Positions 12,701 through 38,065 of a DNA stretch of 64,000 bases are shown here, in pieces. Below the pieces are notes generated by a model that did not search any database, had not been told where the DNA came from, and worked only from the letters and a program-made list of their open reading frames with translations. Within the stretch, counting starts at the first letter, position 1, and each line of letters begins with the position of its first letter. The DNA is from Prevotella sp. (GTDB taxonomy: Bacteria; Bacteroidota; Bacteroidia; Bacteroidales; Bacteroidaceae): contig JAFUDJ010000011.1 of assembly GCA_017459445.1 (NCBI GenBank), positions 47,562 to 111,561 of the forward strand. The letters run 5' to 3'. The position numbers and the translations under genes were made by a program.

Positions 12701-14749
12701 GAACTTACTGTTGCGAATGATGACATTGGCTGCGCTCTGGCGTGCTATGAAGCCACCGAGAAGTGCTTCGCCATTGACAGAACTTTTGAGCGTGACCGAC
12801 GAGCGGCAGTTGTCAATGATGACCTTAGCACCTTCCATAGTCCAACCGATGAGACCTGCTGCATATCTTATACTGGTATTGATGGTGCCAGCCGTGTGCA
12901 GGTTCCTGATGGTGGCATTGCCTACGTAGCGGAAGGGTCCTATAAATTCCTGCCCGGTGTCTGCAAAGTTGAGGGTCAGCGTATGACCGCCACCGTCAAA
13001 GATGCCACGATAGGCATAACCGTTCTCCCAACCGACAATTTGGTCCTTGTTGATTTCAATATCGGCATAGAGGCGGGCGTTCACGTCGGAGTTGCCGCCA
13101 GCCGCTTGTACTTTGTTCTTGAAATCTGTCCAGTCGTCAGTAGTGCGGATGGGGAAGAAGTATTTCGTTACATCCTTCAGGTAGTTGAGGGCCGACTCTC
13201 CGCGCTCCACCAGAACATCCACGTCGAATGAAACGCAGGAGCGGGAGAGAGTCACCACCTTGTAGCGCTGCTCGCGGTCTGTCTGGTTCAGCTCGTAGCG
13301 CATGGTGTCGACGGGCTGGCCGTCGCGGTTCTTCATGGCGACTTGCACCACCATCCGGGCGCGGTCGTCCCACACGGCACCCGGCTCGTCGGCATAGTTC
13401 CACGAAACGCGGGCTGTAAAGGCCAGCGAGTCCACCCACTGAGCCGTGTAGTCCTTGATGCGCAGCAGGTGCAGGTTGTCGAGCGAGCAGCTGGCCTGCT
13501 TGGCGCAGCTGTTCTTCTCCCAGCCCCAGTTCTCGGTCATGGCGCGGCGCACGCGGTAGGTCACGTTGGGCAGCGTGCCGCCGTTCACCAGATGGGCCTC
13601 GGCAATGGCCTGCACCAGCGTGCTGTCAACAAAGGTGTAGGTGCTGTCGTCGACACCTTCCATATAGGGCTCCATGCCTATCTCCTCGAAGTCCTTCTCC
13701 AGACCCGTCAGCGAGCGCTGTATGTAGAAGTGGTCGGCTACCGACATGTCATTCGTGCCCCTGTGCATCAGGTGCCACTTCAGCTCCATCTTCGAATCGA
13801 TGCCGCCCAGCGGCCTGAGGGTCAGGCCCTGCGGCGCATGGATGACGGGCAGGTCTTGTACCTCCGACGATATGTTCTGGATTTCGTAGTCGTTGTTGTC
13901 CTTATAGCTCACCACAATGCGGAAGTCGTGGTGAGGCACCGTGGCGTCTAAATAGATGACGTCGCTGGTGGCCTTCGGCTGCAAGTCCACCTTGTGGAGC
14001 TTGCCCAGATGGTCGGTGTACTCATAGCGGGCCGCCGTCATCTTGTCGGTGGCCATGAACCAGGGAATCTCCAGCATGCCCTCCTTGCTGTACGACATGG
14101 TGGCTGCCGTCAGTTGCGGCGTCATCACCGCCTGGGCACTCGGCACATCGATGGTGGTGCTACTTAAGTCTTTCAGCGTGTAGTCGGTGCCAGCGGTGTG
14201 GTCCAGCGTGACGGCCCACTCCAGCTTGAGCGACTTGCCCAGCATGTCGTAGGGGATGCGCCAGACGGCGCTGAAAGAGTAGGTCTCGCCGTCGGTGTTC
14301 TCATAGACGGTGGTGGTCTGCTCGCCGTCTTCCTGCTTCAGCGTGAAGTGGTTCGACGAGTTGCCCTGCGTGATGTCGATGCTGCCACCGACCGAGGTCT
14401 TGAAGAACACGGGCAGTGTGCTGTCACTGTTGTCGTGGCTGCCCTCCCGTTTGTAGTTGAAGCCCCAGTTCAGCAGGGACTTGGTCTGCGTGTTGCCCGA
14501 GTCGTCGGTCCACGTTACGTTCAGGTTGGCGTTGCTCACCCAGTGGTCCGCCGCGTCCTCGTCGTAGACGGGGGCCTTGATGCGGATGGTGTTCGCACCG
14601 TTGAGCATCACCTGGTACTGGTAGGTCCGTTCGACGAACCAGTCGCCTGCCGCCACTTCCTGTGGCAGCAGCCATGCGAAGAGCGCCAGCAGTAGCATCC
14701 ACTGCCACGGTCGCCCTCGCCTCTTGTTTGTTAATTTGTTGTTGTACAT
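3734..14749 (-). CDS. Giant secreted modular surface protein, 3671 residues
   Basis: One uninterrupted 11-kb frame. The N-terminus is a signal peptide with a KRRGR n-region and hydrophobic core MLLLALFAWLLP. Approximate order: beta-sandwich repeats to 520; two right-handed beta-helix segments with GGGHTLT/RNLH-type repeats near 540-740 and 770-970; a fibronectin III-like unit near 1080; two carboxypeptidase-regulatory-like units (GRVEGYVRFNDG, RFSGFVMYDG) near 1170-1270; a long unassigned middle; two LamG/concanavalin-like domains near 2570-2700 and 2785-2950; a DIVGVFDDQNECHG domain near 3200; paired QKGWNWVSF/KKGWNAIGY repeats near 3326 and 3421; and the tail WYTISGMKLQ...GVYIFNGKKVVVR. It is likely an exported adhesin or matrix protein. 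No catalytic motif was seen. Confidence 0.85.
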   Translation of the reverse strand: MYNNKLTNKRRGRPWQWMLLLALFAWLLPQEVAAGDWFVERTYQYQVMLNGANTIRIKAPVYDEDAADHWVSNANLNVTWTDDSGNTQTKSLLNWGFNYKREGSHDNSDSTLPVFFKTSVGGSIDITQGNSSNHFTLKQEDGEQTTTVYENTDGETYSFSAVWRIPYDMLGKSLKLEWAVTLDHTAGTDYTLKDLSSTTIDVPSAQAVMTPQLTAATMSYSKEGMLEIPWFMATDKMTAARYEYTDHLGKLHKVDLQPKATSDVIYLDATVPHHDFRIVVSYKDNNDYEIQNISSEVQDLPVIHAPQGLTLRPLGGIDSKMELKWHLMHRGTNDMSVADHFYIQRSLTGLEKDFEEIGMEPYMEGVDDSTYTFVDSTLVQAIAEAHLVNGGTLPNVTYRVRRAMTENWGWEKNSCAKQASCSLDNLHLLRIKDYTAQWVDSLAFTARVSWNYADEPGAVWDDRARMVVQVAMKNRDGQPVDTMRYELNQTDREQRYKVVTLSRSCVSFDVDVLVERGESALNYLKDVTKYFFPIRTTDDWTDFKNKVQAAGGNSDVNARLYADIEINKDQIVGWENGYAYRGIFDGGGHTLTLNFADTGQEFIGPFRYVGNATIRNLHTAGTINTSIRYAAGLIGWTMEGAKVIIDNCRSSVTLKSSVNGEALLGGFIARQSAANVIIRNSKFDGSFEGANAANNRGFVAWVARGSSLVIDNCLFAPDQITTKLDGCQTWVGLDTQDVNYTNTNSYATREYSSSYIVINKDEDWNTFKAMVEAAKGNYDVNVSLNADISITNPVGWDGAYPYRGTFEGNGHTLTANLNDNGAGVQFYAPFRYAKTATFRNLHVTGSVSGALHTAGIVGGVRDAANSTLRFENVRVSANVTTSDTHVGGFVGHANNSTVYITNCLFDGNLKSTSSSYDNTYGGAFTGWGDGSWGFECNYENGSYSGILHTGMCYRGFSSPWGGSATSYSAHNWGEMASAANRNLTDQSKAVTLLGSQWHLVNGKAVPVMEATTSASAYTADELLENLGNSWTQDGSAVVPATTTLTYHEYVTSFPKPTLPNFYHASNGKIDETLVTQTRQSSVLLSWNTDGNPIDYFTVMRRTQGKGDDAWTEVATDLTGLSYEDTSVSPLLTYEYKVVAVNQCEGRDSTETKVVVGESKHTGRVEGYVRFNDGTGVAGIRVNATYDGKVVKYDTTDESGHYDIDELSYQGKANVEYKIAVVNEDALEFEAGVSTYSITFNANSNDETVHEFIITNGKRFSGFVMYDGTSIPVKGVNFSVNGQRVHNATGDLVETDYDGSFSFRVLQGDNTIQAVMDKHVFTNDGWYKSSEKQNITSDIAGIYFYDATKVKLVGRIVGGNDQGQKPLDNNLSKNNLGDSLTMVLTLEGDNTSWLVYDNQHPNRSVREEVVRHQRHGDRHYTTVRTERKRMTVWPDVKTGEYTLQLPPVRWKVQQVYCSGYATLFQEGQVSEVIDLTNALDTLTMTYDGTYKDVDTMSVYKPTMTYNAIYNRIYRAPVEVTYKQIGYDTFDYFGDKNYMASNLAGDQRTVPLAYLDPVDSVTVHYTFSFPVFSLERKYGIKLQVAERYQYNNDPRSGAPDLVRLKGGTAYMQNGMKAGATKEAQELDSLGQTVFTVQADQVTRMLTGLGALKTVSFTVERDGTTYEAEPLRGYVLNMFPLGEGKDVLADGQPILMDILRDPPGGYSSATLARGATISNSYMMNLSLSAGPIISVTGGQQSSTYFGTVATVTGNGSTAGYLNSSDNSTTSLTDLVFNMVGNKAYTYTMVLNNAVSTSSDPTMVGADADLYIGTVQNVTVTPMSTIRALTDSMYNEIKSQLSIGQSNTEGILAQYAQYGDLVEIAEGYSPDKDGKLQKFHLVRDLSLGYGPKLQSNFIYSQKQIMQQIIPAKAKEILNLMFIGSKADAQTLANKTKKPVYLSLRNEDDEWFGTANTKIIPGHAYNTEIEVAEDGINYLVVLPDGKKESDFTDEVLEKCMIIYAWAKMITQNEHEKLSATDLVNNYDVAGAAGVNYSETYDAGFSETTMQYFPFGVQPDYFETAAASGSWMAAVSLASKFVAVWVASLTKKLSMNPSIKTNKNDWINENAANKASSTIEFGGMLLKWSILPVVSMQTMGTRGEGKSYNRTESFTLACDPQSHLNVDVYRVKPANTEPNKSHDVTNIFTNGNFYDMSGVVLNRLSGRLSGNQIQVDGPRSFVYRTRGGSTQNPWEDQRVTQFYNEGSELDARTLKIVNPKITLDKQSVSGVSINDAAKFTIILSNESEKPEATEGLTVLQLFSLDQANPQGAKISVNGQTLTTGGMSVSVVPGLPTVLTMEVRAGQGFDYEGLTIGVMSPTDAVNTKELVSFDVHFLHEAGGVNIQTPGDKWVLNTNAQQDAKRGWYIPVVINGFDRHQHNFDHIELQYKESQRGDDAWTNVCSFYASDSLMALANGVRKLIPENGNIVTEFYGEGWVIERTYDLRAVLCCRNGSDFLTTPSRIISGIKDTRRPQLFGTPEPKSGLLTAGDDIVFNFSEDIEYNYLSAITNFEVKGETNNSSLSEMVSVQFNGTTASVESEAKRNFSGKNLTIDLMVKPTETGRDMPIFSHGTNGQKLQLWLTSDFKLKAIVNDEEFVSDSVIGRNAFRQVAVSINQQDSTLTFFKGGVEIGRKKMNGLYTGSGPLIFGRTNEQDRSKSTFYEGRMMEARLWYAAMDGGLIGSTYGGHHLTGYEKDLVDYYPMNEGSGDYVTDYTQGANAKLMNAAWAIPQGLSLKVEKADKGVQLDKTAISRTAEQDYTLMFWFKTDTEGRGTLLSNGRGLRADNGAVNQFHIGFEADKLVYRSNGFAQEVPGNWSDGKWHNYAMTVNRGRSVANIYMDKELVTTFETDTLGGISGGYPLIGASRYDIINEKDTLLNQDGLTPLKGNVDELMFFAQALPQQLISTYASKSPNGDEAGLLTYLSFDRQERQKDNSIELVPYVYSKKLYLDDQGKPRYELDPETKKPTDTLVRDYVFVDDEDEILARLDRKDAAPVVPYEEVTNLKFSFIGRGNQVLVELDEPNAKLNHRNLYVTLRDVEDLNGNTMASPQTACYYVTNSSLQWLINRLDATVRYGSGENCTLSFYNNGAQSHTYTIENCPRWLTLNKYSDVVAPQSLDYVTATVSKDLNIGTYNEIIYLTDEEGITEPFYLNLTVEGEQPEWADHVNSEFLANSMNISGQVYLYDELDSDPRDIVGVFDDQNECHGFANITHDTQSTETGLYLTVYDSQASGRELKFRLWQYSTGREIVLTPAVGGELQSPTITFQKDAMLGTNQPVRFDGGEDFVQNFKLQKGWNWVSFNLKSKQLSDVNKLLGSMRWSDGDILTELNSKLTMSYEAAQKQWIATGNTDGVTISPQKSYAIKVQKDCTLPISGTVVKELDDRTIEVKKGWNAIGYTPMTNLTVETALSDYYDQAEQGDVIKSHTEFAYFTKSGNTGRWRGSLQYMKPGEGYMMLRKGEAETSFTYPYYDMSSNFREDWNTSITRAAAPVMSPSTMSVSATVKGFDVEDGDVLIAYSNGDAVGMATVLSGSLADGQSVAMQSAAESQEPLYLSIAGDAKQGIWFAIERDGEIVAATGEVMTFQTNAVIGSPDEPTAINFVRADYADGQWYTISGMKLQKRPTQSGVYIFNGKKVVVR

Positions 14750-14812
14750 AAGTTAGAAATTTAAATAAAAATGTATATTACCTTGTTTCTTTCTTTTCTT
14801 CTTCTCTTCTGT

Positions 14813-14873
14813 CTAAGGAGTTGAGGAGGACAGGAGTTTTTTATTATTACTCCTTAACTCCCTGACTCCTTAG
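14813..14873 (-). repeat. Leader hairpin R1, copy 2
   Basis: Inverted repeat with arms CTAAGGAGT and ACTCCTTAG around an A/T-rich centre, 64-124 bases upstream of the giant gene start. One arm repeats AGGAGT-type (Shine-Dalgarno-like) words and the other repeats ACTCC/CCTCC-type (anti-Shine-Dalgarno-like) words. It is nearly identical to 16078-16139 and 20285-20345. Confidence 0.8.
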
Positions 14874-14887
14874 AGTTTATTTCTCAG

Positions 14888-14907
14888 TCCTGACACAAAA
14901 CGGATAT
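14888..14907. repeat. Cassette end sequence, left copy of cassette C1
   Basis: TCCTGACACAAAACGGATAT. It is an imperfect inverted match to the sequence at 15820-15843 (ATATCCGTTTGTATCAGTA), so the toxin-antitoxin module between them is bracketed by inverted ends. Identical left copies are at 16154-16173 and 20360-20379, each 15 bases after an R1 hairpin. Confidence 0.75.
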
Positions 14908-14943
14908 AAAAACCGCCGAGCCCATCTTTCGATGTCTCGGCGG
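14908..14943 (-). terminator. Intrinsic terminator of the PIN toxin gene
   Basis: Hairpin with arms CCGCCGAG (14913-14920) and CTCGGCGG (14936-14943), and an inner CATC/GATG pairing. On the minus strand it is followed by TTTTTATATCC. It lies 33 bases after the toxin stop. The same hairpin is found at 16178-16208, 17626-17656 and 20388-20418. Confidence 0.75.
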
Positions 14944-14975
14944 ATATTATTCTTGTATTCTGGGGGAGAGTAGGG

Positions 14976-15422
14976 CTACAGGTACTTGCTTACGAACGTG
15001 TCGGGCAGAAGTATTTCCATTGCCGACGTGTCGGCAAGACGGTAGTCCTTCAGATTGATGGTTACCAGCGCATCGCATTTGTTCTGCAAGGCGCACTGGT
15101 ACTGGTAGCTGTCTTCCACATCATCGAAAGCAAGGTCGTTGGTTCCGCTGACCATGCGCTTGTGGCTGATACTGGCCACGGTGCCCATTGAGAGCACGAT
15201 GTTCAGCAGGCTGCGCAGCCGGTTGGTCTGTTCGGGACGGTGTATGCCCTGACGCTTCAGTTCCATGCGGATGAGGTAGGCCAGCGTATAGACGCATCCG
15301 GCAGAGACCACAGCTTTTATTCGCTTGTCCTCGACGGCACTCAGCAGTTGGCTGACAGCCTGGTATCGACGACGCCGCTGGAGGTATTCGAGGAAGATGT
15401 TCGTGTCGAGGAATACTTTCAT
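14976..15422 (-). CDS. PIN-domain toxin (type II toxin-antitoxin)
   Basis: The ATG at 15422 is preferred over the upstream TTG at 15434, giving 148 residues beginning MKVFLDTNIFLEYL. This is the typical PIN start with the metal-binding Asp6. Later acidic residues (FDDVEDS near 99-104) and LVTINLKDY near 120-127 complete a VapC-like ribonuclease pattern. The predicted role is Mg-dependent RNA cleavage, blocked by the product of the adjacent gene at 15438-15665. The two genes are 15 bases apart, antitoxin first, in the usual order. A terminator follows at 14908-14943. The RNA target is unknown. Confidence 0.85.
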   Translation of the reverse strand: MKVFLDTNIFLEYLQRRRRYQAVSQLLSAVEDKRIKAVVSAGCVYTLAYLIRMELKRQGIHRPEQTNRLRSLLNIVLSMGTVASISHKRMVSGTNDLAFDDVEDSYQYQCALQNKCDALVTINLKDYRLADTSAMEILLPDTFVSKYL

Positions 15423-15437
15423 GGGACTTGACAACTG

Positions 15438-15665
15438 TTAAAGTTGGTACTTCTCCTGAAAGTAGTCTTCGAGGAGTTCTTCTTCTGTGGCCCCTGAGCT
15501 GAACACACCGCAAAGGGCTTCGTGACGGTAATGCCGCTTGCTCTTCTTGGCGGGCTTGGCCGCGTCAATGAGTTGCTGGGCGTAGGCCGTGAGCTGCTGT
15601 TGCAGCAGGTCGATGCGGTACGACTTGGGTATTCTTACCGGAACATTGATGGTTCTTGCTTCCAT
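15438..15665 (-). CDS. Antitoxin partner of PIN toxin
   Basis: A 75-residue protein beginning MEARTINVPVRIPKSYRIDLLQQQLTAY, which could form a short beta strand plus helix DNA-binding N-terminus. A basic patch PAKKSKRHYRHEALCG and an acidic C-terminus TEEELLEDYFQEKYQL follow, the latter a good candidate for the toxin-neutralising segment. It lies directly upstream of the toxin. The promoter-like TAACTTTG on the minus strand at 15771-15778 is about 105 bases upstream. It probably represses its own operon, by analogy with other antitoxins. The specific family was not recognised. Confidence 0.75.
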   Translation of the reverse strand: MEARTINVPVRIPKSYRIDLLQQQLTAYAQQLIDAAKPAKKSKRHYRHEALCGVFSSGATEEELLEDYFQEKYQL

Positions 15666-15683
15666 AATCGTGTTGTTTTACGG

Positions 15684-15825
15684 TTACGCGTGCAAGAACG
15701 GTACAAGCCGAACGCAATCAAACTTGTTTGAATTGCTGAGGCGCAGCCCGTTCTCGCAGCCTTTCGGCTGCAAAGTTACAACTTTTTCGCGATTTCGCGC
15801 ACGATTCCCCAGAAAAATAATATCC
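15684..15825. repeat. 142-bp repeat block P, copy 1, with promoter-like TAACTTTG
   Basis: Begins TTACGCGTGCAAG and ends GAAAAATAATATCC, and is nearly identical to 16705-16846. It contains nested palindromes (CAAACTTGTTTG; GCAGCCTTTCGGCTGC) and, on the minus strand, TAACTTTG at 15771-15778 (copy 2: 16792-16799). TAACTTTG fits the Bacteroidetes -7 box TAnnTTTG, so each copy may drive the small genes that follow. Frames across it are not credible genes. Confidence 0.8.
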
Positions 15826-15843
15826 GTTTGTATCAGTATGTCA
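15820..15843. repeat. Cassette end sequence, right copy of cassette C1
   Basis: Starts ATATCCGTTTGTATCAGTA and continues TGTCA. Close copies are at 18501-18524 and 20892-20915. It is inverted relative to the left end TCCTGACACAAAACGGATAT. Confidence 0.75.
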
Positions 15844-15974
15844 AAGAACGATTTAGCGAGTGGAGAGCCAAGCTTGCTTGAGCTATCCTGAGCGTTGAGT
15901 TCTTCGAGGCAAAGCCTCAAAGAACGATTTCTTCTTGTGACCGCTTGTTACCAAGCTGCCTTATCGAAGGGCTT
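15844..15974. other. Non-coding stretch with palindrome between cassettes C1 and C2
   Basis: Follows the right end of C1. It is bracketed by two TCAAAGAACG words (15842-15850 and 15917-15926) and holds the palindrome TTCTTCGAGGC-AAA-GCCTCAAAGAA. A matching palindrome occurs at about 20970-20995 after cassette C4. No gene is seen. Confidence 0.6.
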
Positions 15975-16018
15975 CACGGTCGCCCTCGCCTCTTGTTTGT
16001 TAATCTGTTGTTGTACAT
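15975..16018 (-). pseudogene. Fragment of giant-gene start (14 codons)
   Basis: On the minus strand from an ATG at 16018 it reads MYNNRLTNKRRGRP, matching residues 1-14 of the giant protein with K5 changed to R. The sequence then diverges, so no functional product is expected. It is part of duplicated block D (15975-16210). Confidence 0.85.
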
Positions 16019-16077
16019 AAGTTAGAAATTTAAATAAAAATGTATATTACCTTGTTTCTTTTCTTCTTCTCTTCTGT

Positions 16078-16139
16078 CTAAGGAGTTGAGGAGGACAGGA
16101 GTTTTTTTATTATTACTCCTTAACTCCCTGACTCCTTAG
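16078..16139 (-). repeat. Leader hairpin R1, copy 3
   Basis: Inside duplicated block D, nearly identical to 14813-14873. Here it has no full-length gene downstream on the minus strand, only the 14-codon fragment. Confidence 0.8.
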
Positions 16140-16153
16140 AGTTTATTTCTCAG

Positions 16154-16173
16154 TCCTGACACAAAACGGATAT
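16154..16173. repeat. Cassette end sequence, left copy of cassette C2
   Basis: TCCTGACACAAAACGGATAT, identical to 14888-14907 and 20360-20379. It is followed 4 bases later by the shared terminator hairpin. Confidence 0.75.
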
Positions 16174-16208
16174 AAAACCGCCGAGCCCATCTTTCGATGT
16201 CTCGGCGG
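16174..16208 (-). terminator. Intrinsic terminator of cassette C2
   Basis: Arms CCGCCGAG (16178-16185) and CTCGGCGG (16201-16208), with minus-strand TTTTATATCC after the hairpin. It is about 80 bases after the 36-codon gene. Confidence 0.7.
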
Positions 16209-16289
16209 ATAAAACCTTTCGGGGTGGTTCCGGGCCCTCGCCCGTGTCAACAAATCAGAGCATTCCGCTCACTCTCATCAATTCCTTTC

Positions 16290-16400
16290 TTACAGCATGT
16301 TGTGCTGGCGTAACCACTGCTTGCCGCTTGGTGTTAGGCAGAACAACAGAAATAAAATACACGGTACTCCGTAAACAAAGAAAATAAGATACATTCCCAT
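16290..16400 (-). CDS. 36-residue membrane peptide
   Basis: Reads MGMYLIFFVYGVPCILFLLF (hydrophobic, one membrane span), then CLTPSGKQWLRQHNML. Its ATG at 16400 lies 3 bases after the TAA of the gene at 16404-16697. The end of that gene supplies an unusually good Shine-Dalgarno-like AAGGAGGAA, which supports coupled translation. A single span followed by a basic polar tail suggests an inner-membrane micropeptide with a cytoplasmic or periplasmic tail. It is probably a partner of the upstream small membrane protein. No family was recognised with certainty. It is within cassette C2. Confidence 0.6.
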   Translation of the reverse strand: MGMYLIFFVYGVPCILFLLFCLTPSGKQWLRQHNML

Positions 16401-16403
16401 AGT

Positions 16404-16697
16404 TTATTCCTCCTTTTTCCTTTTCTTGTTTGTTAATACTAATCCCACTATCAGTGTCGAAACAGCCACGACCGTACCCACAATGTAAATTGCAGAGCTG
16501 TCGTCCATGTCCTTGAACAAGGATGCTATTACGACGCCCGTCGTAACATATTTGGAAATATCCAACAGATACTTACCCAGATTCTCTATCCAAGTGTTCT
16601 CCATCTCGGGCTTTTTTTCGGCCGCCTCCAGCTGCTTGTTGATTTGCGGCTTCTGCGGCTTCGACTTCTCGCGCCTCGTCGTCATATTTGCTTGCAT
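16404..16697 (-). CDS. Small two-span membrane protein (DUF6722-like)
   Basis: The ATG at 16697 (MQANMTTRREKSKPQKP) is preferred over the longer frame; ATG 16685 is also possible. The ~97-residue product has a basic, polar N-terminus. The core MENTWIENLGKYLLDISKY is followed by two hydrophobic segments, VTTGVVIASLF and AIYIVGTVVAVSTLIVGLVL, and a KKRKKEE tail. The LGKYLLDxSK...GVV pattern recalls the Bacteroidales family DUF6722 (from memory). Repeat block P with promoter-like TAACTTTG is just upstream. It is translationally coupled to the 36-residue peptide. Its role is unknown. Confidence 0.65.
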   Translation of the reverse strand: MQANMTTRREKSKPQKPQINKQLEAAEKKPEMENTWIENLGKYLLDISKYVTTGVVIASLFKDMDDSSAIYIVGTVVAVSTLIVGLVLTNKKRKKEE

Positions 16698-16704
16698 TTT
16701 ATAA

Positions 16705-16846
16705 TTACGCGTGCAAGGACGGTGCAAGCCGAACGCAATCAAACTTGTTTGAATTGCTGAGGCGCAGCCCGTTCTCGCAGCCTTTCGGCTGCAAAGTTAC
16801 AACTTTTTCGCGATTTCGCGCACGATTCCCCGGAAAAATAATATCC
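16705..16846. repeat. 142-bp repeat block P, copy 2, with truncated cassette end
   Basis: Nearly identical to 15684-15825. Where copy 1 continues ATATCCGTTTG, this copy switches after ATATCC to ACTCCCTGACTCC, a word found in hairpin R1. It looks like a recombination junction between a cassette end and R1. Confidence 0.8.
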
Positions 16847-17101
16847 ACTCCCTGACTCCGGCGTCGCGCCACCCAAGTTCTTCGGGATGGGGTAAGATTT
16901 CATGGGGACTATACACTGGGCGTTTTAAAAAGTTTCCTTCGCCGTCACATAGGAACGGGAAACGCCGGTATATAAGCGGTTCGCGGGGGTATCCGCGCCG
17001 CGCGGAGGCGCGCGAACGTTCACGGAACCTTCACGGCTGCCTTCTCCCTACATAAGCGGATACGCTTACGCTTATACCTTATTGCCGACTAAAGGAGGCT
17101 T

Positions 17102-17164
17102 GTTTGCGGAAAAGCGCTCACCGTTTGCGGAAAAGCGCTCACCGTTTGCGGAAAAACGCTCACC
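17102..17164. repeat. Tandem array, 3 x 21 bp
   Basis: Three head-to-tail copies of a 21-base unit beginning GTTTGCGGAAAAGCGCTC; the third has one substitution. Confidence 0.95.
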
Positions 17165-17184
17165 GTTTTCCCACGAATGAGCCT

Positions 17185-17250
17185 CTTTCGACTGCCATTT
17201 CAGTTTCTTTCGACTGCCATTTCAGTTTCTTTCGACCGCCATTTCAGCAC
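17185..17250. repeat. Tandem array, 3 x 22 bp
   Basis: Three copies of a 22-base unit beginning CTTTCGACTGCCATTTCAG; the third carries substitutions. Confidence 0.95.
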
Positions 17251-17317
17251 CGCCGGCTCGCTGTTTGAGCCTCCACCGACCATCCTCGTCACCTCCGTCG
17301 CCTGCTCGGCGCACCCT

Positions 17318-17470
17318 CGCCCGCGTAAGCGCACACCCGCTCACGTAGGCGCACCCCTCGCCCGTGCAAGCGCACACCCGCCCACGTAGGCGCACTCCCG
17401 CCCGCGCAAACACACACCCGCCCACGTAGGCGCACTCCCGCCCGCGCAAACACACACCCGCCCGCGTAGG
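17318..17470. repeat. Tandem array, about 7 x 20 bp
   Basis: C-rich units alternating between forms containing CACGTAGGCGCACTCCCGCC and CGCGCAAACACACACCCGCC, giving a 40-base higher-order period. Confidence 0.9.
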
Positions 17471-17625
17471 CAGGCAGCTGTGAAGGTTCCGTGAACGTCC
17501 GCGCGGCGCAGACGCCCCCCGCGAACCTCTTTGTTTACAGGGGTTTCGGGGGAACCGTGAAGGTGAAGGATACTTTTTAAATTCGCCGATGTCTGCTGGG
17601 CGCAGGCGACTTCGCAGGATGCAAT

Positions 17626-17656
17626 CCGCCGAGCCCATCTTTCGATGTCTCGGCGG
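17626..17656 (-). terminator. Terminator-type hairpin of cassette C3
   Basis: Same hairpin as at 14913-14943 (arms CCGCCGAG and CTCGGCGG), 42 bases after the stop of the 166-codon gene. It lacks the T run, so termination strength is uncertain. Confidence 0.55.
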
Positions 17657-17697
17657 ATATATTCTTTCGGGGGGGGAGGAATGTGTGAACGTGCTTT

Positions 17698-18198
17698 TTA
17701 AGGCTTTTGGTTCAAAAGGCTTATCGTCGAAGTGAATTCGGCAATAACCTCCACTAACCGTGGATTGTCGTTTCGGACAATGATGGTGGCATAATTGGTG
17801 ATGCCATCCTCGTCAACTACCGATGACGTGACCGATGTGTAGAGCGCCTTTCTGCTGTAGGCAGAGAACCACCGCTCGAACAGCCGGCTACGCAAGCGCT
17901 GCTTACCGTCGCCAGTGTCGCAGATGTAAAGCAGTGTGGTGTTGTTCTTGTCGAAGAACTCAGCGACGACGGCCAGTACCGTGTCCTTCACCTTTCGGTC
18001 GTTGGGCGACGGTCGGTTGTCCACATTGACGATAATCAGATGGTAGGCCTCACTTTGCATCAGGCTGTCGTCAGGCATAAAGCCTACGGAGTAGTGTACG
18101 TCGTGTTCGGTAAAGAACTTGAAGAAGTTCTCTTCGTCAGCCTCCTCCACTTTGTATGGCGACAGGGCGTTGATGCTCGCTATGTCCAGTGGGTTCAT
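17698..18198 (-). CDS. Conserved Bacteroidales protein (DUF6169-like)
   Basis: A 166-residue soluble protein with no signal peptide. Recognisable segments are HYSVGFMPDD, YHLIIVNVDNRPSPNDRKVKD, LYICDTGDGKQRLRSRLFERW and a C-terminal ATIIVRNDNPRLVEVIAEF. The LYICDxxDGKQ..R..LF..WF pattern matches my memory of DUF6169, an uncharacterised Bacteroidetes family. It overlaps the upstream 46-codon gene by 4 bases (ATGA), so the two are translationally coupled. The two-gene layout, terminator and shared end sequence are like those of the neighbouring toxin-antitoxin cassettes, so a TA-like or defence role is possible but unproven. Confidence 0.7.
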   Translation of the reverse strand: MNPLDIASINALSPYKVEEADEENFFKFFTEHDVHYSVGFMPDDSLMQSEAYHLIIVNVDNRPSPNDRKVKDTVLAVVAEFFDKNNTTLLYICDTGDGKQRLRSRLFERWFSAYSRKALYTSVTSSVVDEDGITNYATIIVRNDNPRLVEVIAEFTSTISLLNQKP

Positions 18199-18335
18199 AA
18201 CACGAAAGTGTATTTGGCAGGCTTGCCTGTCCGCTGTTCATAGGTCTGCTTCATCTTCTCCTCCAGCCGTGCCACGCACTGGCGTTTCTTTTCCTTGGCC
18301 GCCATGAAGCGGGTCATTGCTTCTTCTCTTGTCAT
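18195..18335 (-). CDS. 46-residue charged protein coupled to DUF6169-like gene
   Basis: Reads MTREEAMTRFMAAKEKKRQC, then VARLEEKMKQTYEQRTGKPA and KYTFVL. It is highly charged and almost entirely helical in outlook, like a short antitoxin or adaptor peptide. The TGA overlaps the ATG of the 166-codon gene. A well-formed promoter lies 30 bases upstream (TATCTTTG at 18365-18372 with TTTG 20 bases further). No family was recognised. Confidence 0.7.
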   Translation of the reverse strand: MTREEAMTRFMAAKEKKRQCVARLEEKMKQTYEQRTGKPAKYTFVL

Positions 18336-18364
18336 AGTCGTATCTGTATTACGTTATCTGGCTG

Positions 18365-18396
18365 CAAAGATAGTGCAAATCGAGCGAAATGCCAAA
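18365..18396 (-). promoter_or_regulatory. Bacteroidetes-type promoter of cassette C3
   Basis: On the minus strand TTTG (18396-18393), a 20-base spacer, then TATCTTTG (18372-18365), matching the consensus TTTG-N19/20-TAnnTTTG. Confidence 0.8.
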
Positions 18397-18461
18397 GGAA
18401 AACTTGTTTTTCTTTGTATTTCCGAGATGTAGCCTATCTTCGAGCAAAGCTCAGAGATAAG

Positions 18462-18524
18462 CATTTTCTGCGAGATTATCGCAGAATCCCTCAGTTTTTT
18501 ATATCCGTTTGTGTCAGTATGTCA
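18462..18524. repeat. Right end block of cassette C3
   Basis: Contains the palindrome TTCTGCGA-GATTA-TCGCAGAA followed by TCCCTCAG and a T run, then the end sequence starting ATATCCGTTTGTGTCAGTA (18501-18524). The same block is at 20853-20915. Confidence 0.75.
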
Positions 18525-18564
18525 AAGAACGAGTTTGCCGTCGGTTGAGCGTAGCGCCCCCCTT

Positions 18565-20013
18565 CTACGGCTGGTAGGTGTAGGGGCTATCGGTGATGGC
18601 ACCCGTCACGCCGCCGATGGTCACGGTGCCGACTCTGCCGTCGTTGCCGCCCGCGCCGATGCTGTTAGTGGCATTCTCGCCCTTGGTGGCGGTGACTTTG
18701 GTCACGGTGTTGGTGATGGTGATGTCGCCGCACGCAGCGCCATTGCCGCCGCCGATGCCAGCCGAATAGGCACCGCCCGTGGCGGTGATGGTGCCGCCCT
18801 CGATGCGGATGTTGCCGCAGGCTAAATTAAAGCCGCCGCCGATGCCCGCACCGGCGCCGTTGCTGCTGGCGTCAAGCGAGCCTCTGCCACGGATGGTGAG
18901 CGTCTTGTCGCTGGGCACGTAGATGCCGGGATAGTCCTGATAGAATCCCTTTACGGTGTTCGTGCCGCTGAGGATGATGGTGGCGTCACCCAGACAGGTG
19001 ATGCCTGCCCAGTGGTAGCTGGAGCTGTTCGCGCCGTTGATGGTCACGCCGTTGAGCGTCACCGTGGCGCCGTCGGCGATGGAAATCATGTATTTGTCGT
19101 ACTCTACGTTCAGCGTACCCGTTAGCACGTCACCGTCCTGGGCTGTGATGCTGCCAGGCAGGCTGACCAGATTGAGCGTCGTGCTTTGCGGGGTCATTCT
19201 CAGGCCCTGCTGGTAGAAGTTGTTGGCGGCGTAGGTCTTGCCGGTCAGCGTCTTGGTATAGTCCCTTATGCCGTCGTTGGCGGTGATGGTGATGTCGTGC
19301 GTGCCGTCAGTAGGCCGCATGATGACATAGATGCGTCCATCGGTATCATGCCCCTTGACGGTGTAGTTTTCTGAGCCAGCTTTGATGGTCATACCCGTGA
19401 TGGTGCTGGTGATGTCGTGCGTGCCGTCAGCGTCCTTCAGCGTGAAGGCCACGATGGCAAACTTGTTTTCCAGCGTCACCGGGGAAAGTGTAGTTCCAGA
19501 CATACTGCCTGTATTACAACAAGCATAGTCATGACTTGCGACGTCGGCCAGCGTACCATCCTGCGTTGCAATCGGTACGACGATGTTGCCATTTTCATTT
19601 AGCGACACTAACGATGCCGGATAAAAATATTCGACAGTCTGGCTATTCTTAGGATTGGTCAGCGTGAAGGTCAGCGTTGCCGAATTGCCTTCTGCCGAGA
19701 TGTCCTCCGCTGTCAGGGCTTCGCTCACAGCCATCACCTTCTTTTCACTTGTATTTTCGTACACCAGCGCCACCTGGTCGCCAACGGCGAAGGTCTTATC
19801 GGCTTTTCTGTTCTCGTAGTCAATACGCAGTGCGCGGGTGGTGCCTCGTGCCTGCGCTCCCTCGTCGAAGCCCACGGTGGTGGTCACGGTCACTATGTTG
19901 TCCTGCGTTGCAGACTGCGACCCGTCGGCGATGTTGTCGTCGCTGGAGCAGCCGGTCACTACTGCGCCCACCACTGCGAGGGCTGCTATGCTAAGATATT
20001 TCATTGTCTTCAT
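18565..20013 (-). CDS. Fimbrillin-like lipoprotein with glycine-rich repeat C-terminus
   Basis: A 482-residue protein with lipoprotein signal MKTMKYLSIAALAVVGAVVTGC (written here as residues 1-22: MKTMKYLSIAAL, then AVVGAVVTGC). Residues about 40-280 look like the fimbrillin/Mfa-type double beta-sandwich, with TFAVGDQVALVYEN, VEYFYPASL and LENKFAIVAFTL. From about 290 the protein changes to beta-helical repeats: GTLNVEYDKYMISIADGATV, then AGIGGGFNLACGNIRIEGG and AGIGGGNGAACGDITITN. It is probably a surface-exposed stalk or adhesin component. It is preceded by a 49-codon gene in the same orientation, so likely cotranscribed. Fimbrial polymerisation is not implied. Confidence 0.75.
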   Translation of the reverse strand: MKTMKYLSIAALAVVGAVVTGCSSDDNIADGSQSATQDNIVTVTTTVGFDEGAQARGTTRALRIDYENRKADKTFAVGDQVALVYENTSEKKVMAVSEALTAEDISAEGNSATLTFTLTNPKNSQTVEYFYPASLVSLNENGNIVVPIATQDGTLADVASHDYACCNTGSMSGTTLSPVTLENKFAIVAFTLKDADGTHDITSTITGMTIKAGSENYTVKGHDTDGRIYVIMRPTDGTHDITITANDGIRDYTKTLTGKTYAANNFYQQGLRMTPQSTTLNLVSLPGSITAQDGDVLTGTLNVEYDKYMISIADGATVTLNGVTINGANSSSYHWAGITCLGDATIILSGTNTVKGFYQDYPGIYVPSDKTLTIRGRGSLDASSNGAGAGIGGGFNLACGNIRIEGGTITATGGAYSAGIGGGNGAACGDITITNTVTKVTATKGENATNSIGAGGNDGRVGTVTIGGVTGAITDSPYTYQP

Positions 20014-20034
20014 TGCTTCGTGATGATGGGTTTG

Positions 20035-20184
20035 TTACTCTTCTTGATAACTGTTAAAATTGTAGTTCTGTACACCAGCCTCGCCGCTGGGGCTGCCAGC
20101 CTCGCCGCTACCTGCCAGCAGGTGCGTCTGGTGTTGTAACTTGACGATTTTCATCGCCGGTTTCCTGTAGTCTTTTCTTTTCAT
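20035..20184 (-). CDS. 49-residue conserved-type peptide preceding fimbrillin gene
   Basis: The ATG at 20184 gives MKRKDYRKPAMKIVKLQHQT, then HLLAGSGEAGSPSGEAGVQN and YNFNSYQEE; the longer frame to 20250 only reads the leader. The pattern basic start + KPxMKxVKLxxxxxLLAGSG is, from memory, typical of many very small Bacteroidales proteins encoded next to fimbrillin-like or other surface genes. An internal GSGEAG/SPSGEAG repeat is seen. There is no classic signal peptide. The leader has hairpins at 20231-20261 and 20285-20345. The role is unknown; a secreted or signalling peptide is one idea. Confidence 0.65.
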   Translation of the reverse strand: MKRKDYRKPAMKIVKLQHQTHLLAGSGEAGSPSGEAGVQNYNFNSYQEE

Positions 20185-20230
20185 TGCTGCTAATATCTTT
20201 ATTGTTATACTATTCTTTTTCTTTCTTCGT

Positions 20231-20261
20231 GGCGGGCAGGGGAGTCGCACCCCACCCCGCC
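20231..20261 (-). promoter_or_regulatory. tRNA-minihelix-like leader hairpin, copy 2
   Basis: On the minus strand a 12-position stem (two mismatches in the middle) closed by the 7-base loop TGCGACT, 47 bases upstream of the ATG at 20184. It matches copy 1 at 2722-2752 in size, loop and position, while most stem bases have changed, often in compensating fashion. Confidence 0.5.
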
Positions 20262-20284
20262 TGTTGCTACGGAGGCTTTATTCT

Positions 20285-20345
20285 CTAAGGAGTTGAGGAG
20301 GACAGGAGTTTTTTATTATTACTCCTTAACTCCCTGACTCCTTAG
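20285..20345 (-). repeat. Leader hairpin R1, copy 4
   Basis: Same arms CTAAGGAGT and ACTCCTTAG as the copy at 14813-14873. It is followed on the plus strand after 14 bases by the cassette end at 20360. Confidence 0.8.
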
Positions 20346-20359
20346 AGCCTATTTCTCAC

Positions 20360-20379
20360 TCCTGACACAAAACGGATAT
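20360..20379. repeat. Cassette end sequence, left copy of cassette C4
   Basis: TCCTGACACAAAACGGATAT, identical to 14888-14907. Its inverted partner is at 20892-20915, bracketing 556 bases. Confidence 0.75.
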
Positions 20380-20387
20380 AATGCAAT

Positions 20388-20418
20388 CCGCCGGGCTCAT
20401 CTTTCGATGTCTCGGCGG
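20388..20418 (-). terminator. Terminator-type hairpin of cassette C4
   Basis: Variant of the shared hairpin (arms CCGCCGGG and CTCGGCGG), 33 bases after the truncated toxin stop; the T run is weak. Confidence 0.5.
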
Positions 20419-20450
20419 ATAAAAAACTCGATGGGAGAATGTCGGGTGGA

Positions 20451-20585
20451 CTACTGAGCCTCGATAAGCCTTGAGTTTTGGAACTCGTCGAGCGTAACGA
20501 GGTTCGCATCCCATATCGGGCGATAGGGACTCTTGCGGGCGATAATCTGCAACAGGCAGTTAGTGTCAATCACTACGGGATTCAT
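20451..20585 (-). pseudogene. PIN toxin with large internal deletion
   Basis: From an ATG at 20585 the frame encodes only 44 residues: MNPVVIDTNCLLQIIARKSP, YRPIWDANLVTLDEFQNSRL, IEAQ. The first ~27 residues match the start of PIN-family toxins (VVIDTNCLL...SPYRPIWDA). The remainder resembles the C-terminal end (LVTLDEFQN), so roughly 90-100 central residues, with the other catalytic acids, are missing in frame. Nuclease activity is very unlikely. The antitoxin gene 6 bases upstream is intact. It could be a read error only if a whole segment was lost in assembly. Confidence 0.7.
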
Positions 20586-20591
20586 AGCCGC

Positions 20592-20813
20592 TTACTTCGT
20601 ATAAGGTGTACGGAAGTGTGAACCGCGTAGTTCTTGAAGCCGTTTCTCGTCAAACTGACCGCTCTCCCATAGTACATCCATCTCGTCATCAATCTGCTTA
20701 GCATAGAATGTTGCCAGTTGTTGGCGCAACTTTTCCAGTCCCGCCGCAGTCTTGATGTGGGATACCAGATTGAACACTTGTACTTGTGCCGGGGTAAAGG
20801 TAATTGCTTCCAT
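20592..20813 (-). CDS. Antitoxin of the disrupted PIN module
   Basis: A 73-residue protein, MEAITFTPAQVQVFNLVSHI followed by KTAAGLEKLRQQLATFYAKQ and IDDEMDVLWESGQFDEKRLQELRGSHFRTPYTK (split here for length). The TPAQ..V..L...I...EGLEKLR..L..FYA.. pattern fits the small Bacteroidales antitoxins found before PIN toxins of the type at 20451-20585. The promoter-like TATCTTTG is at 20850-20843 on the minus strand. As the toxin is deleted, the antitoxin may be relic, solitary regulator or anti-addiction factor. Confidence 0.7.
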   Translation of the reverse strand: MEAITFTPAQVQVFNLVSHIKTAAGLEKLRQQLATFYAKQIDDEMDVLWESGQFDEKRLQELRGSHFRTPYTK

Positions 20814-20852
20814 AATCCTAACGTTTAATCAGTTTCTGGCTGCAAAGATAAG

Positions 20853-20915
20853 CATTTTCTGCGAGATTATCGCAGAATCCCTCAGGTTTTTATATCCGTT
20901 TGTGTCAGTATGTCA
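20853..20915. repeat. Right end block of cassette C4
   Basis: Palindrome TTCTGCGA...TCGCAGAA, T run, then the end sequence beginning ATATCCGTTTGTGTCAGTA (20892-20915). It is nearly identical to 18462-18524. Confidence 0.75.
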
Positions 20916-21008
20916 AAGAGCGCCTGAGCCGAATGCAATGGAGCTTGCTCCTATTGCTGAGGCGATGGTGTTCTTCGAGGCAAAGCCTCAAAGAACGCTT
21001 TCTATTGT

Positions 21009-22856
21009 TCAGAGGTTCACCAGGAATGAGAGGCCCAGCGTCCAGTAGTTCATGTGCTTGCGGGTCTTGTACTCACGGGCATCCAGTCCGATACCGTCGG
21101 CGTATTCGCCCGTCGAGGCCATGAGGGCAGCGTCCGTCAGGAAGGCGGCACCGCTGGTCATGCCCTTCTGCATGAAGTGGTAGGGGTCGTAGGTGGCGGT
21201 GAAGTCCTTGCGGGTGTAGTCGTAGTCGCAGTAGATACGCCATGAGAAGTTGGACTTGTAGCGATAGGTGAGCGAGATGCCCGTGCCAAACGAGGTGGAC
21301 GACTTGGCGCTTACGGTGAGGTATTCCCAGTCGTCGGTCCATTTCTCACCTGTGTTGGTGGGATACTGCAAGTTTTCGAGCAGGATAGAAGGGTCGCCGG
21401 AAACGTCCTTGTGACCGGGACGGTTGTCGAGCGTCAGGGTGTAGGGGATGTCCTTCACGTTGCCCTCGGCGTGACCGTCGATGTCGAGTTCCTGCGTGAT
21501 GGAACGGCCGATGAGTGCCTTGGTGCCGAGGGAGAAGTGACGGCTGAGGGGCAGGTTGAAGTAGACACCGACGCTGCCGGTGAACTCGGTGATGTGGTCG
21601 CTCTTCACGATGCCGTAGCTGTCGGTGACGGGGGCGTTGGCATTCCACTCACTCTCCGTTTCTGCTGCATAGCCTATCTTGCCGAAGTAGGTGAGCTCGT
21701 TCTGGACCAGATTGCCGGGCACGTAGTCGCCGGGGAAGGCTGCCTCATAGTATGGCTGCAGCCCCTGCCAGGCGTAATAGTCCTCGGCGGCCACAAAGTC
21801 GGCAAAGTCGCCGAAGTCCTTAACCGATTGCGCGCGTACCCGCAGGCGCCCGCCCACGCCCACGTACTTATTAAAGAAATAGGCACCCTCGGCATCGACC
21901 ACCGTGGCGGCACGGAACTTAAGGCCTATCTTCTCACCATAGCTCTCAAACTCGAGGTCCTTGTTGCCAAGGCCCACACCCATGGAGATGCTGAAGAAAG
22001 AGGGCTTTTCGTTGTCCAGCACCAAGTCGTTGCGCAGCAGTCCCTTCTGTTTGAACATCAGGTCGCAGAGGGCATAGCCCAACTCGGTGGACATGATACC
22101 GATGCCGGCACCCGACATCACATCGCTAATCCAGTGGCGGTTGTTGAGCACACGCATCACACCTGTGGCCGTAGCCACACCGTAGCCGGCCACCGACCAC
22201 CAGGGCGAGCGTGTCAGTCCATACTCCTTGTGGAGCAGCGAGGCGCCGACGAAAGCGGTGGCGGTATGTCCCGAGGGCCAGGAATTGGCGGTACTGCCGT
22301 CAGGGCGCATCTCCTTGGCGGTGTACTTGATGCCGTTCACCAGTCCGGCCATAATACCATACGACATGGCGGCACTGGCCAGCAGGCGGGGCCAGTCGCT
22401 GCGGCCCTCATAGCCGCCCAGCTTCAGTCCGACCACCATGGCGGGGCCGAAGAACTGGGTGTAGTCGTCGATGCCAGTCTTGAAGTCGGTCAGCAGCTGC
22501 GTGTTCTTCTTGCCGCCTTGCTCGGCCTTCTGGTTGACGCGGAACATGGCCTTGTCGCCCTTGATGGCCAAGCCTGCTGCGAACAGGGGGATGCCGACGA
22601 AGGTCAGGTCGTCCATGAACTTGTAGGGCTTGACGCCGGGATTCGTCTTCGACTTGAAGAAGTCAAAGTCGGGTTTCCACTTGTCGGCAGTTGACTCCAC
22701 GTTCATTGTGGGGACAGGAAGAGCCTTAACTTCCACCAGCTCGGCCTTCATTTCAGGTGTCTCCAACTTCAGGGGTTTCATGTCACGATAGTTCTCTGCT
22801 GTGGCCTGAACTGTCAAGGCTACGGCGAGTACGGTTAAAAAATGTCGGATGTTCAT
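21009..22856 (-). CDS. PAP2-family phosphatase fused to outer-membrane barrel-like domain
   Basis: A 615-residue protein with a signal peptide (cleavage near residue 20). Residues about 90-275 are a PAP2 lipid/undecaprenyl phosphatase: KYTAKEMRPD near 175, SWPSGHTATAF near 190, and NNRHWISDVMSG near 238, carrying all three motif histidines/arginines. From about 285 to the end the sequence alternates polar and hydrophobic residues and closes with MNYWTLGLSFLVNL, typical of an outer-membrane barrel. The expected reaction is dephosphorylation of a lipid phosphate, possibly lipid A or isoprenyl phosphate, at the envelope. It is the last gene of the RND efflux operon (29 bases after the TolC gene). 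Confidence 0.8.
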   Translation of the reverse strand: MNIRHFLTVLAVALTVQATAENYRDMKPLKLETPEMKAELVEVKALPVPTMNVESTADKWKPDFDFFKSKTNPGVKPYKFMDDLTFVGIPLFAAGLAIKGDKAMFRVNQKAEQGGKKNTQLLTDFKTGIDDYTQFFGPAMVVGLKLGGYEGRSDWPRLLASAAMSYGIMAGLVNGIKYTAKEMRPDGSTANSWPSGHTATAFVGASLLHKEYGLTRSPWWSVAGYGVATATGVMRVLNNRHWISDVMSGAGIGIMSTELGYALCDLMFKQKGLLRNDLVLDNEKPSFFSISMGVGLGNKDLEFESYGEKIGLKFRAATVVDAEGAYFFNKYVGVGGRLRVRAQSVKDFGDFADFVAAEDYYAWQGLQPYYEAAFPGDYVPGNLVQNELTYFGKIGYAAETESEWNANAPVTDSYGIVKSDHITEFTGSVGVYFNLPLSRHFSLGTKALIGRSITQELDIDGHAEGNVKDIPYTLTLDNRPGHKDVSGDPSILLENLQYPTNTGEKWTDDWEYLTVSAKSSTSFGTGISLTYRYKSNFSWRIYCDYDYTRKDFTATYDPYHFMQKGMTSGAAFLTDAALMASTGEYADGIGLDAREYKTRKHMNYWTLGLSFLVNL

Positions 22857-37855: not shown

Positions 37856-37864
37856 CGAAGTGAC

Positions 37865-37928
37865 AAAAAAAGGGACTCCGCTGAGTCCCAAACCTTTGTT
37901 AACCTTAAATCTAATACTATGAAAAACA
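37865..37928 (-). ncRNA. Probable small RNA with own promoter and terminator
   Basis: On the minus strand a -7 box TATATTTG (37941-37934) is followed by about 40 bases containing AGATTTAAGGTTAACAAAGG, then the hairpin GGGACTC-AGCG-GAGTCCC (37889-37872) and TTTTTTT. There is no frame of useful length. The arrangement resembles a common Bacteroidales small transcript that I recall but cannot name with certainty. The expected length is about 60 bases. Confidence 0.6.
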
Positions 37929-38065
37929 CATTGCAAATATACAGGATTTATCTTAAAGGCGGATGCAAAACGTACAGAAAACAGTGTCAGACATACACTT
38001 TCTTGACCTAAATCAACCGGAAAAGCGGCAAAAAAAGCCGCGAAAGTAAAGTTTCTTGCCAAAAA

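Follow-up and report, generated by a model that had tools for sequence, protein, structure and literature searches.

What are the four small gene modules that stand, all on the minus strand, among the surface-protein genes of a Prevotella contig, and what are the inverted sequences that close them? The modules (C1 to C4) lie in a stretch of 64,000 nucleotides, here called the window, which covers positions 47,562 to 111,561 of contig JAFUDJ010000011.1 in the assembly GCA_017459445.1, a genome that is 55% complete. Most of the 16S gene of another genome in the same genus has 92% identity to Segatella records and 88-90% to Prevotella records, from which we take the source to be a Prevotella-like member of the Bacteroidota. 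An earlier note on this DNA had seen in them non-autonomous mobile gene cassettes, moved by a trans-acting enzyme. The best explanation that we can now offer, held with middling confidence, is a different one: an intact cassette would be a toxin-antitoxin (TA) or TA-like operon that is driven by a promoter of its own and set in a bracket of boxA leader and anti-boxA trailer like that of ribosomal RNA (rRNA) operons. What carries this explanation was observed, namely the identity of one end as boxA in sequence, the complementarity of leader and trailer, their covariation, the same arrangement around the native 23S rRNA and the turnover of the cargo.

The two ends and their probable counterparts in rRNA operons

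The left end of the modules, TGACACAAAACGGATAT, occurs in three exact copies in the window (14891, 16157, 20363), with none more at up to three mismatches, and none of 100 shuffles of the window reached three copies. The right end, ATATCCGTTTGTRTCAGTA, also has three copies (15820, 18501, 20892; none in shuffles), and a hairpin next to the left end has four (Table 1; none in shuffles for its 22-base core). All four modules carry this hairpin, whereas 214.5 kb of other DNA from the same genus hold none, a difference that favours the bracket. Both ends are kept in C1 and C4, the boxA is lost in C2 and the trailer in C3. The description given in the earlier note, of four modules in one orientation with common left ends, right ends and hairpin, was thus borne out, as were two of its details, the missing left end of C3 and the right end of C2, cut at about 16846.

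Read in gene direction, the right end is CGTTCTTTGACATACTGA(C/T)ACAAACGGATAT and resembles boxA; it is called here end A, or leader, and its partner end B, or trailer. In 45 A ends chosen by their inner part alone we find a sharply bounded conserved block of about 33 bases, in which the CTTT just beyond that inner part is kept in 37-40 of the 45 at each position, a point in favour of the bracket reading, and the consensus of 37 aligned A ends is CGNTCTTTGAC[AT]TACTGA[GC]ACAAACGGATATT. Since end A looked like the boxA sequence of E. coli, TCTTTRACWTAYTGA was searched in 12 genomes and found in 10 of them, at 30 loci, with no match for the reversed control. Eight of the 30 loci were compared with Rfam, which placed six of them, each in a different genome, in the 16S-tRNA-tRNA-23S spacer and gave no match for two (L380 and L384). 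With one mismatch allowed, the rRNA spacer was also reached in G117, G122 and G010 (one locus tested in each); together with the six exact cases, this means that the boxA core (up to one mismatch) stands in the 16S-23S spacer of all nine genomes of the genus that consist of one to three contigs. The spacer copies read, for example, GATCTTTGACATATTGA(G/C)ACA. End A therefore matches the boxA of the lineage's own rRNA operons, and in the window's own genome TCTTTRACWTAYTGA was seen only as the three cassette copies. Altogether, the promoter-side end is most likely an rRNA-type boxA antitermination site, as judged from its sequence.

The profile search described below also finds loci with the boxA-like first part alone. 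In six of ten loci classed as lacking a cassette, boxA stands by itself 32-56 nt behind a TANNTTTG promoter, which again speaks for a boxA; L339, counted among the ten, has the look of a cassette end that contains additional bases. At L344, L353, L355, L358 and L365 this lone boxA follows the promoter by about 33 nt, with neither cassette nor trailer, and at least in L344, L353 and L355 it lies in the 5′ leader of a lipoprotein-like gene.

End B is the reverse complement of the tail of A. In the rRNA operons of three genomes (G346, G266 and G351) the sequence that pairs best with the spacer boxA falls, in all three, between the end of the 23S and the 5S; its duplexes reach -27 to -35 kcal/mol, while the means over the 1.2-1.4 kb around the 23S end are -10 to -13. 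With this complement in three of three operons, native 23S precursors have the same pair of boxA leader and anti-boxA trailer (loci L370/L397 in G346, L374/L398 in G266 and L372/L399 in G351), and in these bacteria the helix of 23S leader and trailer could enclose boxA itself. For the cassettes, the complement of leader A was sought within 1.8 kb downstream of 55 of the 59 cassette-type ends, four having been dropped for short downstream sequence. In 36 of the 41 hairpin-bearing cassettes the best one fell between -40 and +240 nt relative to the hairpin, a range that makes up about 16% of what was searched; this count is lowered in weight by the trailerless C3, which enters it through a weak match (-16.5) in the same distance range; in C1 and C4 the complement near the hairpin reaches -24.5 and -31.2.

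Moreover, the two ends change together. A G/C position agrees at both ends in 23 of 24 cassettes. In 24 A-B elements, chosen because both ends were recognised, the cognate duplexes are stronger than permuted ones (-28.2 versus -26.4, p 0.0002). Behind CGG, four bases match the hairpin side in 32 of 36 rows, where a hand count gives about 18 expected; six of the 42 rows of this class table were dropped, their hairpin string falling outside the three classes, and among its 63 A rows some few are matches by chance within the window. Permutation over all pairs equalled this covariation in 4 of 5000 trials, and in 5 of 5000 for a smaller set. Permutation within genomes did so in 458 of 5000, which weighs against the pairing and leaves covariation inside single genomes suggestive only. 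The differences between A and B favour G.U pairs that fit the sense RNA (32 versus 15). These matched changes at both sides support a pairing of leader and trailer, and end B is most likely an anti-boxA trailer. As A matches boxA and B its complement, just as in rRNA, the cassette appears to copy the rRNA leader-trailer frame around a TA operon.

A dispersed cassette family and the turnover of its cargo

Searches with exact ends would suggest that there is no family. In 299 same-genus genomes the exact right end was found in the window's own genome and in one match of G029, without a partner in its 1.8-kb locus, and an exact-end scan of wider genome contigs gave 86 stretches scattered across many phyla, of which only four hold a second end-like sequence; the remaining stretches were taken as chance. 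Outside the window, the own genome has the left end only with two mismatches, within other sequence, and its end regions yield short partial matches only. Allowing G or C at one position reversed that view: 48 of the 299 genomes then carry an end, with 85 matches against 26 for the reversed control, from which about a third of the matches may be chance. When 26 chosen genomes were searched with a profile of 37 A ends, picked for their resemblance to boxA, each had between 1 and 17 matches at E up to 0.1, several of them a weak one only. One of the four wider stretches with a second end-like sequence, a Bacteroidetes record outside the same-genus set (L080, 4709-6266), has it as a weak inverted partner 1.5 kb off.

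The search of related genomes for paired ends, a check that the earlier note had put forward, recovered pairs 0.3-1.35 kb apart that enclose mostly two small genes, mostly with the hairpin CCGCCGRG..CTCGGCGG, and in these pairs end A is always on the promoter side. Pfam was run on 30 of the 52 listed cargo frames and recognised seven PIN, two YafQ, one ParE, one RelE, one Zeta and one nucleotidyltransferase protein, three DUF3990, one each of DUF3791, DUF4160, DUF2442, DUF6169 and DUF6722, and one AAA-ATPase with a PD-(D/E)XK domain; one match was weak and below threshold, and seven proteins had none. A known toxin domain beside a small partner gene, as in type II TA operons, is therefore found in C1 (PIN_3) and in relatives (PIN, YafQ, ParE, RelE, Zeta), whereas the cargo of C2 and C3 consists of DUF families only and the toxin of C4 is a fragment.

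A generic motif of TA promoters is not favoured as an explanation of end A, because few homologue loci carry an end (2 of 29 for PIN; among 29 for DUF6169, L225 with a one-mismatch core and L202 with the hairpin but no recognised ends) and the 214.5 kb of same-genus background have none. The share of DUF6169 is understated by those 29 loci, since the profile search found A ends beside further copies (G260:C117, G034:C26, G291:C13, G205:C44). In collections of phages, plasmids and viruses the end sequences gave no meaningful match, and as text in published papers they met short chance strings in unrelated work only. The cassettes are a real, dispersed family that swaps its cargo.

This swapping is seen at fixed sites. 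In G136 and G051 a flank of 1.1 kb (96% identical) continues through end A, and no BLAST match extends into the cassettes. In G260 and G187 different cassettes (1345 and 1036 bp) lie between flanks of 98% (771 bp) and 95% (200 bp) identity, the last 45-130 bases before the ends differing too, on one or both sides. The reverse is also found: C1 and a PIN cassette of G082 have common cargo and recognisable ends, the trailer of the latter imperfect, at unrelated sites, and cassettes with 85% identity along 900 bp stand between unrelated flanks in G034 and G022, a pair that has not kept the boxA part of A and shows no recognised trailer. In 19 relatives (20 loci were taken and one, partial, was left out) the stretch that follows the PAP2 gene, up to 700 bases long, holds no cassette end. 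An invertible segment was considered and is not favoured, because the conserved outer part of A stays with the promoter side in the listed elements.

Proposed mechanism and competing explanations

If the bracket works as its rRNA counterpart suggests, a polymerase reading through from a co-oriented upstream gene would transcribe boxA, which would recruit NusB-S10 and make the polymerase resistant to termination; the antiterminated polymerase would cross the cassette with its hairpin and get to the next surface-protein gene. The emerging trailer would pair with the boxA leader around the hairpin in a helix that loops the TA message out, and this double strand could be a substrate for RNase III-type cutting, freeing or trimming that message. 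The helix may also take boxA from NusB and so reset it. Through antitermination and the leader-trailer helix the TA operon would be insulated and its insertion would not be polar. NusB binding, antitermination, cleavage and insulation are thus argued by analogy. As a more tentative extension, in which we have rather less than even confidence, the cassettes might form a mobile class defined by RNA ends and not by DNA ends, which lands without polarity in any co-oriented operon and is excised in the manner of pre-rRNA.

Several observations weigh against the bracket and its proposed working. Only two of the four window modules retain both ends, no hairpin was recognised in 14 of the 55 cassettes, and in 5 of the 41 that bear one the best complement of the leader lies elsewhere. 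The differences between A and B include 67 transversions, mostly outside the core, in alignments that are noisy at the outer part. The asymmetry of the hairpin itself (G.T on the antisense strand, A.C on the sense strand) disfavours a hairpin in the sense RNA and is opposite to the G.U bias of the A-B differences, and the T-run after the hairpin is missing in C3 and C4. The position of the promoter is a further difficulty: its motif follows A in 52 of 59 cases (3.2 expected from shuffles) and precedes it, within the 10-90 nt searched, in 1 of 59. A boxA upstream of the TA promoter would therefore act only on read-through from the upstream gene, which is co-oriented in 33 of the 59, opposite in 10 and without an orientation call in 16 (34, 18 and 12 in a cruder count of neighbours).

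A first family of alternatives keeps the DNA ends. Mobile insertion cassettes are miniature inverted-repeat transposable elements (MITEs) with passenger genes, and A and B could be terminal inverted repeats of such elements, recognised by a trans-acting transposase, with the likeness to boxA being mimicry or a choice of target. We consider this rather unlikely. In its favour are dispersed copies with mostly TA cargo, two ends that match each other, one kind of cassette at unrelated sites (C1 versus L174, L262 versus L303) and different cassettes at one site (L285/L298, L277/L300). However, target-site duplications, looked for in 23 elements at lengths of 3-8, were not above 12 shuffled pairings. 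No transposase or integrase was recognised in the inspected cargo (frames read by eye, Pfam on the 30 proteins), nor any autonomous relative, with these ends and a transposase of its own, among the cargo of the inspected A ends, in searches that were not exhaustive. The ends are inverted and covary, yet they are unequal, the listed B ends lacking the CTTTGAC that stands beside the repeat in A; A is conserved beyond the repeat and resembles the rRNA boxA, and the pair as a whole is that of native rRNA precursors, so that boxA and trailer would explain the inverted, covarying ends. The inverted ends are probably not transposon ends. Of the mobile-cassette claim of the earlier note, what stands is a dispersed family, mostly of two genes and mostly TA-like, with the same ends in many genomes and cargo turnover at fixed sites; what finds no support is the view of the ends as termini of a transposon on which an enzyme acts in trans, though an enzyme of that kind may still mobilise the cassettes. 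These results weaken the transposon-end idea, and mobility is partly supported through the turnover.

The ends need not imply movement at all. A, hairpin and B could be expression signals of immobile TA genes at a variable surface-gene locus, spread from locus to locus and strain to strain only by ordinary homologous recombination within the promoter, hairpin and flank sequences that they have in common, and blocks common to neighbouring modules around unrelated cargo fit this: C1 and C2 share such blocks at 96-97% identity (150 bp at 96% on the promoter side), C3 and C4 at 96% (80 bp on the promoter side), and cassettes within the genome G034 share them on both the promoter and the hairpin side. 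The same holds for the 96% identical flank of 1.1 kb beside different cassettes, and for a direct duplication of 240 bp (97%; window 14706-14946 and 15975-16211) that takes in, for C1 as for C2, the left end together with the outer left side. Cassettes of one kind at unrelated sites in different species stand against it, as some way of reaching new sites is then needed, and we judge immobile leaders to be improbable, somewhat more so than MITE-like cassettes. Far less probable, to the point of being nearly dismissed, are cassettes of site-specific recombination. Short TA-rich modules between inverted sites do recall pdif (Xer) modules and integrons, and Xer sites are 28 bp long with an 11-6-11 layout, while integron cassettes carry an attC site behind each gene. 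Here the end consensus, compared by eye, shows no likeness to the 11-6-11 layout, the ends are inverted and unequal with one on each side, unlike attC, no integrase was recognised in the cassettes seen, and the end resembles boxA.

Set beside known systems, the cassettes are closest to the rRNA antitermination site with its leader-trailer helix (rrn boxA, boxC and trailer; NusB-NusE): their boxA is like that of the 16S-23S spacers of the genus, and a strand beside boxA would pair with a distal trailer so that the framed stretch loops out. They differ in what is framed, a TA operon that codes for proteins, measures about 0.3-1.3 kb and has a promoter and hairpin of its own, in having boxA upstream of that promoter and in a pairing that takes in the tail of boxA itself. 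In E. coli, boxA is described as necessary and sufficient for recruiting the antitermination complex, NusB that has bound it is believed to hold the leader close to the RNA exit, where the trailer can pair, and boxC, near boxA, pairs with the trailer and overlaps the RNase III site (PMC10250234). There is precedent for a boxA next to a TA gene: a boxA-controlled ParE-like TA gene of Citrobacter koseri came out of a search for boxA within 50 bp of start codons (Baniulyte et al. 2017, PMC5725501). That case shares with ours a boxA beside a TA system and a control by Nus factors beyond rRNA; the passages on it mention no trailer, whereas in the cassettes boxA precedes the TA promoter and has a trailer as its partner.

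Mobile insertion cassettes share with ours short passenger modules, free of transposase, between inverted ends at many sites, and differ in that ours have no target duplication, no related transposase found and unequal ends resembling boxA and anti-boxA. Modules of pdif type have an inverted layout and TA content. Those of Acinetobacter, described as lying between Xer sites (PMC6449649, PMC12907356), are likewise small modules between inverted sequences of recombination-site type, but the sequence and layout of the sites differ by eye from ours, in which Xer is not implicated. Among the papers listed by full-text searches on boxA and on TA cassettes, which cover few of the subscription journals, no report of a leader-trailer bracket around a cassette was found.

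If the bracket reading holds, rRNA-style antitermination and leader-trailer folding would extend to protein-coding accessory cassettes in Bacteroidota. This would account for the presence of TA modules, be they selfish or defensive, among large surface-protein genes that they do not silence. The frame, which looks copied from rRNA operons, suggests a way to insert portable genes into an operon without blocking those downstream. In this line, boxA together with anti-boxA gives a sequence handle for finding such modules, and they would be a natural non-ribosomal case for how anchoring by boxA aids long-range RNA pairing.

The modules of the window and their surroundings

In minus-strand order the PAP2/outer-membrane gene is followed by C4, the lipoprotein-like gene, C3, C2, C1 and the 3671-residue surface-type gene (Table 1). 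The promoter -7 motif of C1 was assigned with the Bacteroidota consensus.

Table 1. Positions of module parts and adjacent genes in the window (aa, amino acids)
Feature	Position	Strand	Basis
C1 leader (end A), putative boxA and pairing strand, CGTTCTTTGACATACTGATACAAACGGATATTA	15818..15850	-	sequence; likeness to rRNA boxA
C1 promoter -7 motif, TAACTTTG	15766..15779	-	read in sequence; pattern statistics; Bacteroidota consensus
C1 gene 1, 75 aa, putative antitoxin	15438..15665	-	partner position; no Pfam match
C1 gene 2, PIN_3 toxin	14976..15422	-	PF13470, E 6.3e-16
C1 hairpin, CCGCCGAG..CTCGGCGG, terminator-like, drawn on antisense strand	14913..14943	+	repeat search
C1 trailer (end B), complement of leader	14891..14907	+	exact copies; duplex analysis
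C2 remnant of end A, boxA lost, cut at about 16846	16840..16846	-	sequence
C2 gene 1, DUF6722, 97 aa	16404..16697	-	PF20482, E 1.1e-18
C2 gene 2, 36-aa hydrophobic peptide	16290..16400	-	read in sequence; no Pfam match
C2 hairpin	16178..16208	+	repeat search
C2 trailer (end B)	16157..16173	+	exact copy
C3 leader (end A, putative boxA)	18499..18531	-	sequence
C3 promoter -7 motif, TATCTTTG	18360..18373	-	read in sequence; pattern statistics
C3 gene 1, 46 aa	18195..18335	-	no Pfam match
C3 gene 2, DUF6169, 166 aa	17698..18198	-	PF19666, E 2.2e-22
C3 hairpin; trailer (end B) missing	17626..17656	+	repeat search; weak complement only
C4 leader (end A, putative boxA)	20890..20922	-	sequence
C4 promoter -7 motif, TATCTTTG	20838..20851	-	read in sequence; pattern statistics
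C4 gene 1, 73 aa, putative antitoxin	20592..20813	-	no Pfam match; compared with relative
C4 gene 2, 44-aa fragment resembling PIN N-terminus	20451..20585	-	PF13470, E 0.098, below cut-off
C4 hairpin	20388..20418	+	repeat search
C4 trailer (end B)	20363..20379	+	exact copy; duplex analysis
PAP2/outer-membrane protein gene, co-oriented upstream neighbour	21009..22856	-	sequence; Pfam; loci of relatives
Lipoprotein-like gene, 482 aa, co-oriented, between C4 and C3	18565..20013	-	list of open reading frames; Pfam
Surface-type gene, 3671 aa, co-oriented, downstream of C1	3734..14749	-	list of open reading frames

Some other repeats surround the modules. The 240-bp duplication takes in the first codons of the 3671-residue gene. 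A palindromic repeat, CTAAGGAGT..ACTCCTTAG, is found at 14812-14878, 16077-16144, 20284-20347 and 2773-2850 of the window; it adjoins trailer B in C1, C2 and C4, and two of its places are in front of co-oriented surface-type genes. Outside end A, at 15899-15925 and 20970-20997, there are hairpins GTTCTTCGAGGC..GCCTCAAAGAAC that start, in gene direction, with GTTCTTTGA as boxA does, and palindromes resembling them stand outside A in several relatives. Between C2 and C3 (16924-17581) lies a GC-rich block with short tandem repeats inside a 73% inverted repeat of about 120 bp. Farther away, window positions 37862-37929 match the Rfam family FopS (RF04319), a small RNA of Bacteroidetes.

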